From contig CANGLU010000008.1 of the NCBI GenBank assembly GCA_947455025.1, positions 1 through 64,000 on the forward strand: a stretch of 64,000 nt of DNA, written 5' to 3'. This DNA is from Hyphomicrobiales bacterium. GTDB lineage: Bacteria; Pseudomonadota; Alphaproteobacteria; Rhizobiales; Beijerinckiaceae. Below the pieces are notes generated by a model that did not search any database, was not told where the DNA came from, and saw only the letters and a program-made list of their open reading frames with translations. Shown in pieces: positions 1,204 through 4,136 of this stretch (within the stretch, counting starts at the first letter, position 1; the number at the start of each line of letters is the position of its first letter). The position numbers were made by a program, and so were the translations under genes.

Positions 1204-1221
1204 ATGCTTGCCTTTTTATGG

Positions 1222-1301
1222 TTCACAAGTAAGACAGTGGTTGACATTTAATACATAATGCTTCACTATGTCTTACGTGTAAGCCACTATCCCAGATAGT
1301 G
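1222..1301. promoter_or_regulatory. Candidate operators between XRE and Ubl genes
   Basis: Two 12-bp sites share one layout, a 5-bp arm, two bases, then GTAAG. The site at 1272-1283 is CTTACGTGTAAG with perfect arms. The site at 1222-1233 is TTCACAAGTAAG with an imperfect left arm. The wider sequence GTAAGACA (1229-1236) recurs inverted as TGTCTTAC (1269-1276). A further perfect inverted repeat, CACTAT-CCCAG-ATAGTG, lies at 1285-1301. The two 12-bp sites flank the predicted promoter, so a bound dimer pair could loop or occlude it. The binding protein is inferred to be the adjacent XRE regulator. Confidence 0.55.
1241..1269 (+). promoter_or_regulatory. Sigma70-like promoter of the Ubl operon
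   Basis: A perfect -35 hexamer TTGACA at 1241-1246 is followed after 17 bp by a weak -10, CACTAT (1264-1269). Predicted transcription start is near 1276, inside the downstream operator-like site 1272-1283. A strong -35 with a weak -10 under an overlapping operator fits a tightly repressed promoter. The start has not been measured. Confidence 0.5.
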
Positions 1302-1333
1302 ACAAGCTCGTCAACCATCAGAAGGATTTAAAC

Positions 1334-1603
1334 ATGACTACCGAGAGTGAGCCAAAAGAGCCTGACAAGACGATCACGATTGTAGTAAACGGCACCGCCC
1401 ACGCTGTGCCAAAAAAAGAAAACCTGACTTATGCGGAGGTCGTGACCTACTTCGACCCAACCTATCCCCAACATCCGCAGACAGTTTACTCCGTGACTTA
1501 TACGCGCGGCCATAAGCCAAAAGAGGGCACGCTTGCTCCCGGGGGCACAGTGAAAGCCAAAGAAGGGATGCAGTTCGATGTTATTCCAACTAGCGCATCA
1601 TAA
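1334..1603 (+). CDS. Multiubiquitin-family ubiquitin-like protein
   Basis: An 89-residue protein matching, from memory, the single-domain form of the bacterial Multi_ubiq (beta-grasp) family. Visible family features are the opening strand TITIVVNG (about 13-20), the helix EVVTYFDP, the strand VYSVTYTRG, and the closing segment GTLAPGGTVKAKEGMQFDV. Only one beta-grasp unit is present, although many relatives have tandem copies. It ends in TSAS, not a diglycine, so if it is conjugated the tail is either trimmed or used in a non-canonical way. AGAAGG lies 7-12 nt before the ATG. Its last 26 bp overlap the start of the E1-like gene, which suggests translational coupling. Inference: it is the modifier transferred by the downstream proteins. 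Confidence 0.8.
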   Translation: MTTESEPKEPDKTITIVVNGTAHAVPKKENLTYAEVVTYFDPTYPQHPQTVYSVTYTRGHKPKEGTLAPGGTVKAKEGMQFDVIPTSAS

Positions 1604-2753
1604 TCCTGATATCCAAAAGCTGATTGATCGGGGCTATGCGCTCCGATTTGACAGCAATTATCTTGTCATCAGGGACATTCCGTACCTTGATGCTGAGGGA
1701 CAGCTTTGTTGGGGAGCAATTGTTACCGTAATTAAAGATATTGATGGCATGCGAGTAGAGCCTGTTGATCATCAAATATTCTTCGCCGGCGGAGTGCCAT
1801 ACGGCCTCGACGGCAATCCGATACCATCTCTCGGTGGCGGAGCTGCAAACGTGACGTTGGCAAAGAATGATGTCATCGTACAGCGTTCGTTTTCCAATAA
1901 GCCGCCTAACGGACTTCCAGATTTCTTCGTCAAAATTGAACACTATTTGTCGATTCTTTCGGGACCCGCTCGGCATAGATATCCAGACGCCAACCCCTTT
2001 ACCTTCAATGTCGACGAGGACACCGGGACCGATAGTGTCTTTCTATTCCGAGATACACTTACGAGCCAAGCGCTAATTGGTGACCTCGCCGCCAAATTTT
2101 CTAAAGAGGTCATAGCGATCATCGGCCTAGGTGGCACAGGAGCATATATGCTCGATTTTCTTGTGAAGACCAATGTTCAGGAAATTAGAGGATTCGATCC
2201 AAAACCCTTCCACGTTCATAATGCATTTCGTTCACCTGGGCAGTTATTAAACGAAGAACTCAACAATTCTAAAGCTGCAGTTTACCAAAAACGCTACGAA
2301 AATTTCCGCAAAAGCTTGCACCTTGAGGCGAAAGCCATTGACAAAGATTGCGACGCCGATTTTGTGAACGTGACCTTCGCATTCGTCTGCGTGGATCGCG
2401 GGACCGCCCGTGCAGAGATTTTCGACCTTCTTATCCGCCTCGGCATTCCTTTCATTGATGTCGGGATGGGACTCGTACGCCAAGGCGACTCACTAGCTGG
2501 CATGATTCGCACGACTCTTTTTGAACCAACCAATGCGGCAGAAATACGCGCTAAGGGAATTGTGCCTCTGACTGATCCTCCCGGCAATGAATATCGAACA
2601 AATATTCAGATCGCCGAGCTAAACGCGCTAAATGCGAGCATAGCCATGCTCCGTTACAAGCAGTATTGTGGATTTTACAAGCAGTCCGAGCTCTCGTACC
2701 ATCTGCTTATGAACACCGCCACGCATCGCATATTTGTTGAACCCGAAACATGA
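1578..2753 (+). CDS. ThiF/E1-like adenylyltransferase with N-terminal DUF6791-like domain
   Basis: A 391-residue two-part protein. Residues about 175-391 form a ThiF/E1 Rossmann domain with the nucleotide motif GLGGTG at 183-188, HNAFRSP at 214-220 in the position of the E1 arginine-finger loop, and CVDRG around 271-275. The first 165 residues resemble the DUF6791 domain often found before ThiF (conserved-looking DHQIFFAGG at 64-72); the name is from recall. Such enzymes activate the C-terminus of a ubiquitin-like protein with ATP. Odd points: no CxxC zinc pairs, and only four cysteines (44, 258, 271, 364), so the thioester residue is not obvious. The start overlaps the Ubl gene by 26 bp, and the stop overlaps the next gene as ATGA. 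GAAGGG precedes the ATG by about 10 nt. Confidence 0.82.
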   Translation: MLFQLAHHNPDIQKLIDRGYALRFDSNYLVIRDIPYLDAEGQLCWGAIVTVIKDIDGMRVEPVDHQIFFAGGVPYGLDGNPIPSLGGGAANVTLAKNDVIVQRSFSNKPPNGLPDFFVKIEHYLSILSGPARHRYPDANPFTFNVDEDTGTDSVFLFRDTLTSQALIGDLAAKFSKEVIAIIGLGGTGAYMLDFLVKTNVQEIRGFDPKPFHVHNAFRSPGQLLNEELNNSKAAVYQKRYENFRKSLHLEAKAIDKDCDADFVNVTFAFVCVDRGTARAEIFDLLIRLGIPFIDVGMGLVRQGDSLAGMIRTTLFEPTNAAEIRAKGIVPLTDPPGNEYRTNIQIAELNALNASIAMLRYKQYCGFYKQSELSYHLLMNTATHRIFVEPET

Positions 2754-3142
2754 CCGACTTTCGGGTGGAAAAAGTTCACTATATCCCCGCAGCGCTGGAA
2801 CCGGGTATTCTTTACATGTCCGAAGAATTCAAGATTGCAATGCACCTGTGTGCATGTGGTTGCGGCAGCAAGGTTCCAATCTCCCTTGGACCGGCAGGCT
2901 GGACGGTCAGAGAGCAAAACGGCAAGCCTACAATCAAACCCTCGATCGGAAGCGGACAATTGTTATGCAATTCACATTATTCAATCAGCGAGGGTAAGGT
3001 TAAGTGGGCGCTCGCAATGAGCGCCGCCGAGGCTGTAGCAGCGCTCAAATCAGATCATAATCGGCGCGAAGCCTATTATGTCGAACATCGATGGCATATC
3101 CGTGTGCGGAGGATGTTGTTCGATTGGTTCGGCATGCAGTGA
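2750..3142 (+). CDS. DUF6527 family zinc-binding protein
   Basis: A 130-residue protein that looks like DUF6527, a family that travels with bacterial ubiquitin-like operons. Residues 34-38 are CACGC, and C73 with H76 (CNSH) can complete a zinc site. A conserved-looking KPSIG lies at 63-67, followed by a Trp-rich tail. The biochemical role is not settled in my knowledge; processing of the Ubl tail, removal of the modifier, or target recognition are all possible. It begins in an ATGA overlap with the E1-like gene and is the last gene of the operon. The zinc motif and gene order are seen directly. The function is inference. Confidence 0.72.
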   Translation: MTDFRVEKVHYIPAALEPGILYMSEEFKIAMHLCACGCGSKVPISLGPAGWTVREQNGKPTIKPSIGSGQLLCNSHYSISEGKVKWALAMSAAEAVAALKSDHNRREAYYVEHRWHIRVRRMLFDWFGMQ

Positions 3143-3254: not shown

Positions 3255-3554
3255 CTACGCCTGCCGTTTCGTCTTCGGAACGATATCTATCCGGTAGCCC
3301 AGCGCATCGAGAACTTTGGTGATTGTCGCGAAGCTCGGATTGCCGCCGTTTGAGAGCGCTTTGGTGAGTCTGATGCGGCTGATGCCCGTCTTGCGCGAAA
3401 GTTGACTCATACCGCATGCGCGGGCGACGTCGCCTAAAGCGCGGGCCGTAAATGCGGGATCATTATCCTCGGCCACCGCTGCAAGATAATATTTAATATC
3501 TTCATCGGTTTTCAGAAAGTCGGCGGTATCTTAGCGCGTAAGTTTCAAAGCCAT
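3255..3554 (-). pseudogene. Addiction-module antidote gene with in-frame stop
   Basis: Reading from the ATG at 3554 gives MALKLTR, then TAA at 3531-3533, then the normal start of a COG3636-type antidote in the same frame (DTADFLKTDEDIKYYL), running without further breaks to 3255. The helix-turn-helix is intact (SQLSRKTGISRIRLTKAL). Intact relatives are about 100 residues long, which fits 3554 as the original start. Translation could restart at the GTG at 3476, giving a 73-residue protein without the N-terminal 25 or so residues. No matching RelE-type toxin is adjacent, so this is an orphan or decaying antitoxin. It sits just 3' of the higBA pair in the same direction. Confidence 0.7.
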
Positions 3555-3565
3555 AGCCGCCCCCT

Positions 3566-3895
3566 TCAGCCCTTTCGCGGAATGATCCGCTCAAGCACTT
3601 CCGATAAGGCCCGCCGCTCTTCCATCAGTTCAAAATCCATTTGCAGGCCCAGAAAAAAGCCTTCGGAGACGCCGAAATAACGCGCCAGCCGTAAATCTGT
3701 ATTTGCGGTGACGGCGCGTTTTCCGAGAATAATTTCATTAATTCGGCGCGGTGCCACGCCAATGGCTTTCGCCAGCGCCGTTTGGCTCATGCCTAAGGGC
3801 TTTAAAAAGTCTTCGGCCAGAACATCGCCCGCATGGGGGTTTTTTAGCCGCTCATCAGTGATAGTCGACGATTCGGACGCGGAAAGCGTCGCCAT
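3566..3895 (-). CDS. higA: HigA-type antitoxin
   Basis: About 109 residues. After a short variable N-terminus comes the classic HigA/VapI pattern: NPHAGDVLAEDFLKPLGMS, an XRE helix-turn-helix (TALAKAIGVAPRRINEIILG), then LRLARYFGVSEGFFLGLQ. It binds and neutralises the preceding toxin and represses the operon through the palindrome upstream. The start is uncertain: ATG 3895 or ATG 3928 are in frame, and both lie inside the end of the toxin gene, an overlap of about 40 bp or more. Close overlap with toxin first is the usual higBA order. Confidence 0.8.
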   Translation of the reverse strand: MATLSASESSTITDERLKNPHAGDVLAEDFLKPLGMSQTALAKAIGVAPRRINEIILGKRAVTANTDLRLARYFGVSEGFFLGLQMDFELMEERRALSEVLERIIPRKG

Positions 3896-4136
3896 TTTGC
3901 CAGATGAAACAGATGCGCCATTGGTCATTGATGCGAATACTCCATTGTCCTTTAAGGTCGCCCCGAAGTGCCTCGAGCCGGTTACCGGGCGGAACCATCA
4001 AATCCTCAATTGTTTTGGCCTGCTGAATCAGGCGCAATTTGCGGAGCGCCGTATCTTGAATGTCACGCGGGAGCCGCCGGCTAACCCGGCCCTCCCATAT
4101 TGTAGCCGTCTCGCCATTCCCAAAAGTCTGGATCAT
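3855..4136 (-). CDS. higB: HigB/RelE family toxin
   Basis: A 93-residue RelE-superfamily mRNA interferase. Typical signatures are LRLIQQAKTIEDLMVPPGNRLEAL, then GQWSIRINDQWRICFIW and the end RVRIVDYH, which match HigB proteins across their length. Such toxins cut mRNA at the ribosome. The gene lies directly upstream of and overlapping its antitoxin. Its ATG is 5 bp from an 18-bp palindrome whose GAGG end serves as the ribosome binding site. It lies 48 bp after the stop of the deacetylase gene in the same direction, so some read-through is possible. Confidence 0.85.
   Translation of the reverse strand: MIQTFGNGETATIWEGRVSRRLPRDIQDTALRKLRLIQQAKTIEDLMVPPGNRLEALRGDLKGQWSIRINDQWRICFIWQNGDAFRVRIVDYH

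Follow-up and report, generated by a model that had tools for sequence, protein, structure and literature searches.

A candidate ubiquitin-like conjugation operon with a serine-terminal Ubl and a neighbouring CapP-like protease gene in a Hyphomicrobiales bacterium

The stretch considered here, termed the window, comprises 64,000 nucleotides at the start of contig 8 (CANGLU010000008.1) in the 2.5 Mb genome of a Hyphomicrobiales bacterium (GenBank assembly GCA_947455025.1), and it carries a compact operon for a ubiquitin-like protein (Ubl), an E1-like protein in which a DUF6791 domain precedes a ThiF/E1 adenylation domain, and a DUF6527 protein. The operon is regarded as a candidate conjugation cassette, and two of its features are new: sequence comparison indicates that a C-terminal serine is conserved in DUF6791-type Ubls across relatives from about 12 phyla, and a protease gene is a frequent neighbour of the operon. 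The reading offered here, which we regard as evenly balanced between right and wrong, is that of a sporadic, mobile and stress-induced Ubl-activation operon of the Bub/type 6e family, furnished with a ready-made C-terminal serine and operating without processing by a JAB peptidase. E1-activated ubiquitin-like proteins are, to our knowledge, generally held to require a C-terminal glycine. If the reading is true, a widespread serine-terminal family would alter the chemistry expected of E1 enzymes and would offer a compact gene set in which to study conjugation that involves no thioester cascade.

Gene content and distribution of the operon

The Ubl gene (1334-1603, plus strand; 89 amino acids by the open reading frame (ORF) call) encodes a single Multi_ubiq beta-grasp domain and overlaps by 26 bases the E1-like gene (1578-2753, plus strand; 391 amino acids), within which DUF6791 occupies about 1605-2057 (residues 10-160 by Pfam). 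The E1-like gene in turn overlaps by 4 bases the DUF6527 gene (2750-3142, plus strand; 130 amino acids), whose product has a putative zinc site, C-x-C-x-C ... C-x-x-H. The original prediction of three overlapping genes for these proteins was confirmed by the ORFs and by family scores, and all four Pfam profiles that it named scored above cut-off: Multi_ubiq (PF14452) on the Ubl (46.2 bits; cut-off 24.5), DUF6791 (135 bits; cut-off 25) and ThiF (31.5 bits; cut-off 28.1) on the E1-like protein, and DUF6527 on the third protein (71.7 bits; cut-off 23.6). The E1-like protein also matched NCBIfam NF004803 (533 bits; cut-off 419).

Conservation was assessed in the best 80 of at least 522 confirmed relatives, from which all counts for genome loci are drawn. 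An E1 ORF is present in 79 of the 80, and a DUF6527 gene in 78 of those 79; the E1 also matched 114 plasmid records, and the seven plasmid regions first fetched have the identical three-gene order. Because this order recurs in the plasmid regions and the gene set in the genome loci, the arrangement is not a product of chance, and homologous operons do keep the gene order. In 60 of 74 genome loci and in all five further plasmid loci (Gammaproteobacteria, Actinomycetota, Bacillota, Cyanobacteriota), an E1 start codon is found within the Ubl gene, precisely 26 bases from its end. A short Ubl turned out to be the rule among the near relatives: Ubl ORFs, counted from the first possible start so that their lengths are upper bounds, are at most 125 amino acids long in 55 of 77 loci and exceed 200 in 11. 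The set of 77 omits L012 (truncated, without a Ubl), L017 (no E1 ORF called) and L079 (broken Ubl frame).

By phylum names assigned from record titles, many of them of metagenome bins, the 80 loci come from Pseudomonadota, Bacteroidota, Chloroflexota, Actinomycetota, Bacillota, Desulfobacterota, Nitrospirota, Nitrospinota, Acidobacteriota, Verrucomicrobiota, Planctomycetota and Armatimonadota. Within the window's own phylum, Pseudomonadota, DUF6791 was found in 8 of 398 genomes, its own included, and in none of 12 other genomes of its own family; the closest relatives among the matches listed are rhizobial (Aminobacter, 80%; a Rhizobium plasmid, 79%). Such a sporadic, patchy spread is what a mobile accessory operon would show. 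As to a phage origin, tblastn searches with the Ubl and the E1 as queries gave no match in 50,697 phage records.

The C-terminus of the Ubl

An eight-sequence Ubl profile matches the solved multi-ubiquitin protein 9cd2 with an E-value of 3.9e-51, the window sequence alone reaching only 0.038. The last four codons of the window gene (1589-1600; stop at 1601-1603) encode T-S-A-S, and the C-terminus reads T-x-x-S in 76 of the 77 genome loci and is glycine in none (TGQS in 66, TSES in 4, TGES in 3, TDKS in 2, and TSQS and TGQA in 1 each). The Ubl of L017, outside this set, still ends in TGQS, and 9cd2 ends in TQTDKS. Serine is likewise terminal in 18 of 18 further records with a DUF6791 E1, 15 of them distant (L002-L008, six genomes and L145-L149; of ten Multi_ubiq genomes, the own genome was counted as the window, and G111, G256 and G236 were excluded for want of a DUF6791 E1 match, the contig of G236 being cut). 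Position -3 in these 18 is G, S, D, V, I, N or T, and one of them has serine instead of threonine at -4. The conservation of T-x-x-S cannot be put down to the overlap with the E1 start, because five loci in which the genes do not overlap (L024, L031, L036, L047 and L077) also end in TGQS.

Bub, the nearest studied system, is known here from the titles of PDB entries 9ea4, 9ea5, 9ea8, 9eae and 9eav and from the citation of Ye et al. 2026 in PMC13373217. In Bub-type operons, which encode an E2, stand-alone Ubls end in TTTEG, QTEG, NFGAR, TFGL, NPGQES, NPGQN, NPGR, or TTEG plus eight residues, and Ubls fused to the E2 have N/D/E-Gly at the junction in the E2-type loci examined. The endings NPGQES, NPGQN and NPGR belong to short Ubls of the E2-type operons L139, L142 and L151, and they are possibly intermediate between the glycine type and the T-x-x-S type.

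These endings bear on an alternative that we consider unlikely, namely that T-x-x-S is a propeptide or tag, which a protease trims (for example, after the glycine of T-G), so that conjugation is of the glycine type as in Bub or Bil. Glycine does stand at -3 in the 66 TGQS tails of the 77, the three E2-type endings just named resemble a glycine with a short tail, and the deubiquitinase (DUB) of Bil is described as trimming BilA to its C-terminal glycine (PMC11354881). However, -3 is serine in the window and D, V, I, N or T elsewhere, and it is the last residue that is conserved. Propeptides usually vary. Furthermore, a JAMM pattern matched no ORF longer than 90 amino acids in the first 9 kb of the window or in L001-L088, as against 11 of 11 Bub-type loci tested as controls (11 of 12 such loci, with L139 omitted for its broken E1 gene and L150-L152 not included), though a peptidase of another kind might still act.

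The own genome as a whole gave one marginal Prok-JAB match (25.1 bits; cut-off 25), and Prok-E2_E had no match in that genome or among the window proteins. The claim that the operon has no separate E2 or JAB gene therefore holds in the first 9 kb for JAMM-like ORFs and in the own genome for Prok-E2_E. Because the Ubl gene stops at the conserved terminus, JAB processing may be unnecessary for a DUF6791-type operon.

The E1-like protein and DUF6791

An AlphaFold2 model of the E1-like protein (predicted local distance difference test, pLDDT, 91.2; predicted template modelling score, pTM, 0.81) was compared with solved structures; Foldseek ranked BubCD first (E 4.6e-13), and VIA-align gave Z-scores of 24.2 for BubCD, 23.5 for ThiF, a tie, and 21.7 for MccB. 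In an alignment of 73 E1 sequences (L012, L014, L017, L066, L079 and L088, with incomplete or uncertain E1 ORFs, were omitted, as were L081 and L085), D207, R218, K232 and D273 are kept in all 73 and, by position, presumably correspond to the adenylation residues of MoeB. No cysteine is conserved family-wide in this alignment, while Y339 is kept in 72 of the 73 and in all eight sequences of a smaller alignment. Bub may use oxyester intermediates. A profile of the E1 domain aligned with ten Bub E1s (E 4.6e-15) and paired Y339 with BubCD Tyr370, the residue mutated in PDB 9eav according to its entry title.

The lack of a family-wide cysteine and of an E2 gene would also fit an E1 that yields a modified Ubl or a small molecule in the style of MccB or ThiF instead of protein adducts, and both of these enzymes match the E1 fold well by VIA-align Z. 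MccB acts on a C-terminal asparagine, and the E1 fold can therefore use a residue other than glycine. Such a role is nevertheless quite improbable in our estimation, given that relatives of the E1 domain and of DUF6527 sit in Bub-type operons encoding an E2 and a JAMM peptidase.

A further proposal, compatible with activation at an encoded serine, is that DUF6791 is a cysteine-less E2-like domain in the slot of JAB, which would make the whole protein a fusion of E2 and E1 that operates in the Bub manner; we place this only a little short of an even chance. It is consistent with the order of elements in the model (helix, strands, loop, helix), with a roughly colinear alignment to Prok-E2_E, with the invariance of H65, S106 and K108 (73 of 73 E1 sequences), and with one profile comparison, made with a larger DUF6791 set, whose score only 1 of 200 shuffles attained. 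The remaining comparisons were not significant, with no signal in the first sequence set, a score that 14 of 200 shuffles attained in another, and one that 28 of 300 attained with the largest sets, in which the alignment changed. DUF6791 matched no other Pfam family above chance and no PDB sequence, and Iyer et al. (2006) speculated that their N-terminal domain, presumably the same one, might serve in a way comparable to JAB (PMC1779556). The fold search with the whole E1-like protein is a poor test of DUF6791, as matches to the E1 domain take up the list. It had been proposed that the N-terminal domain and DUF6527 must cover the jobs of E2 and JAB unless these are not needed; of the two jobs, that of JAB may be dispensable, and that of the E2 might fall to DUF6791.

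The DUF6527 protein

The residues C34, C36, C38, C73 and H76 are invariant in 65 DUF6527 sequences, and our guess is that the protein has a zinc-bound accessory role. Its predicted model (pLDDT 91.6) matched no PDB fold at E 0.001 or better, the best Z in the other comparison being 2.5, and its sequence found nothing convincing in the PDB (one match at E 0.82). Among the papers searched, none names 'DUF6527'. The family is nonetheless shared with Bub: it occurs in 12 of the 15 E2-type plasmid records fetched (11 by annotation and L137 by sequence), and nine DUF6527 proteins from Bub-type loci are homologues of the window protein (profile E 1.9e-20). Because of this co-occurrence and the first rank of BubCD in Foldseek, the nearest studied system is Bub rather than Bil, which had originally been named.

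A protease/HTH pair at the promoter

Upstream of the Ubl gene, two minus-strand genes open the contig: one for an ImmA/IrrE-type, CapP-like metalloprotease with a HELSH motif (285-866; Peptidase_M78, 55.1 bits) and one for a repressor-like helix-turn-helix (HTH) protein in the position of CapH (871-1203; HTH_3, 34 bits). The 130 bases between the HTH and Ubl genes (1204-1333) form a shared divergent promoter region, which the original prediction took in by starting at 1204, although both this gene pair and the serine terminus were missing from it. Within the gap, an inverted repeat (1219-1236 and 1269-1286) flanks a TTGACA picked out by eye (1241-1246); 15 of its 18 positions pair, a score reached in 2 of 400 first-order resamplings, and from its sequence it may be operator-like.

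The linkage to the protease recurs. Of the 75 loci in which a Ubl was present and the sequence upstream reached 1.7 kb or more, 58 have an M78 gene no more than 3.3 kb upstream, as against 2 downstream, and the opposite strand carries 54 of 62 upstream matches. Since the 2.5 Mb of the own genome hold just two M78 genes, we estimate that chance adjacency in that genome is well below one per cent. By PADLOC, the window protease is a moderate match to capP (35.2 bits, E 2.1e-9). CapW or CapH plus CapP are reported to accompany 219 of 544 Bub operons, and these modules to respond to DNA damage (PMC13373217), and activation of CapP by single-stranded DNA (ssDNA) is mentioned in PMC10904395. Because of the capP/capH likeness, the inverted repeat and these reports on Bub operons and CapP, induction of the operon by stress or DNA damage is a grounded prediction. 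The linkage to an ImmA/IrrE-type protease would, if the overall reading is true, provide a handle for induction and tie the pathway to the DNA-damage control reported for cyclic-oligonucleotide-based anti-phage signalling systems (CBASS) and Bub operons.

Separately, annotated ImmA/IrrE and HTH genes lie upstream on the opposite strand in 5 of the 15 Bub-type plasmid records (L135, L137, L138, L140 and L144).

Relation to known systems

The original prediction presented the operon as a minimal variant, but this architecture was described by Iyer et al. (2006) as type 6e: a Ubl protein of one, two or three repeats, an E1 whose N-terminus carries an uncharacterised domain (domain X) replacing JAB, and a metal-binding protein written C-x3-C-x35-38-H-x2-C, with a solo Ubl noted in one species and the speculation that domain X does a job analogous to that of JAB (PMC1779556). 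The window corresponds in its single beta-grasp Multi_ubiq repeat, in an E1 with DUF6791 in the place of JAB and without a JAMM motif, and in the C34-x3-C38 ... C73-x2-H76 site of DUF6527, though here the second pair is in reversed order. We infer that DUF6791 is domain X. The type 6e account predates the DUF numbers and, in its available text, mentions no regulator; it states that no C-terminal residue is conserved in the remaining newly found Ubl families (PMC1779556), whereas today's sequences of the DUF6791 subset do have one.

With Bub, the operon shares the Ubl family, the E1 adenylation domain, the alignment of Tyr370 with Tyr339, the DUF6527 neighbour and frequent control of the CapH/CapP type; it differs in having neither a JAMM peptidase fused to the E1 nor a Prok-E2_E protein or domain. 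Bub-type Ubls, in our reading of the loci, have glycine at or near the end, whereas the window has TSAS, although many of its relatives have glycine at -3. We place the operon in the domain-X subset of type 6e and regard it as sister to Bub, outside Bub itself because it has no JAB, no E2 gene and no glycine-type terminus. With Bil it has in common a Ubl and an E1 in one operon, but the separate E2 and JAB-family DUB genes of Bil are absent from the window operon. In the CapH/CapP modules that control CBASS and other immune operons, an HTH gene and, behind it, a gene for an M78 protease with HExxH point away from the operon promoter; the window shows this arrangement, though the capP match is moderate and the capH match weak. 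For the operon itself, PADLOC gave weak E1-E2 matches to the E1-like protein (best E 1.4e-4), a best E of 0.055 for the Ubl and no match for DUF6527. A literature search found no title on DUF6791 operons or a serine-terminal Ubl and led instead to Iyer et al. (2006) and a 2024 review citing it; the serine terminus may stand in Gong 2025, Ye 2026 or Chambers 2024.

Proposed mechanism

In the proposed mechanism, the CapH-like HTH repressor would hold the shared promoter until it is cut by the CapP-like protease, whose probable trigger is ssDNA arising in phage attack or DNA damage. The Ubl and E1 would then be co-produced, coupled through their 26-base overlap, and the Ubl would be translated with a working T-x-x-S terminus that needs no trimming by JAB. 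The E1 would adenylate the carboxylate of the terminal serine and, having no conserved catalytic cysteine, could pass the Ubl on via an oxyester at Tyr339, as may happen in Bub; alternatively, transfer might proceed from the adenylate directly to the target, with DUF6791 and DUF6527 helping. Conjugation in this full form, through an encoded C-terminal serine and a cysteine-less E1 (by tyrosine oxyester or direct transfer), with no genes for an E2 or a deconjugating peptidase and with an ssDNA switch, is put forward tentatively and well below even confidence. A defence role for the operon is plausible.

Several observations weigh against this mechanism or parts of it. The window tail, TSAS, is without the usual GQ, and a terminal serine, after a glycine and a tail, occurs in three Multi_ubiq proteins without an adjacent DUF6791 E1 (L139 and L143, which are E2-associated, and L097). 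The serine could be a recognition tag instead of the activated residue. Because the modelled E1 fold matches ThiF as well as BubCD by Z, a non-conjugating use of the E1 is possible. Some cysteines are common among near relatives, C271 in 71 of 73, C354 in 39 and C258 in 27; C271 lies two residues before D273 and is serine in three of the eight sequences of the smaller alignment. As for control, 17 of the 75 loci have no upstream M78 gene, the M78 ORF has no HExxH in 3 of 58 loci (L076, L084 and L085), and the window HTH protein matches capH weakly (E 0.0036). Finally, a 2026 EMBO J paper states that protection from phage has yet to be demonstrated for Bub operons.

Neighbouring genes

Among the recurrent neighbours of related loci are M78, HTH and DUF2188-like proteins. 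Of 79 genome loci, 19 have a small DUF2188-like gene, and in 18 of them it shares the strand of the Ubl gene and is situated at most 1 kb upstream (L009, L013, L019, L030, L038, L040, L042, L049, L057, L058, L061, L063, L071, L080, L083, L084, L085 and L086). One is also present just upstream in L004, and the gene is possibly an optional fourth component. A DUF1508 gene occupies its place in L147, and a DUF2188 gene follows the Bub-type operon of L143. YegP is, as we take it, a relative of the DUF2188-like protein. YegP is reported to adjoin CapK/CapS modules (PMC13373217).

In four plasmid operons, L007, L145, L149 and the Bub-type L141, a UvrD-helicase gene precedes the Ubl gene, its end being under 100 bases away. 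DarT and macro-domain genes lie near the DUF6791 operon of a Cytobacillus plasmid (L148, 6482-7122), and upstream in L004 (66-1783) are genes for a macro-domain protein and for DUF4433, which we take to be DarT-like. In the window, the region 3' of the operon (3255-4136, minus strand) has, by family matches, two antitoxin-like genes and a HigB-like toxin gene.

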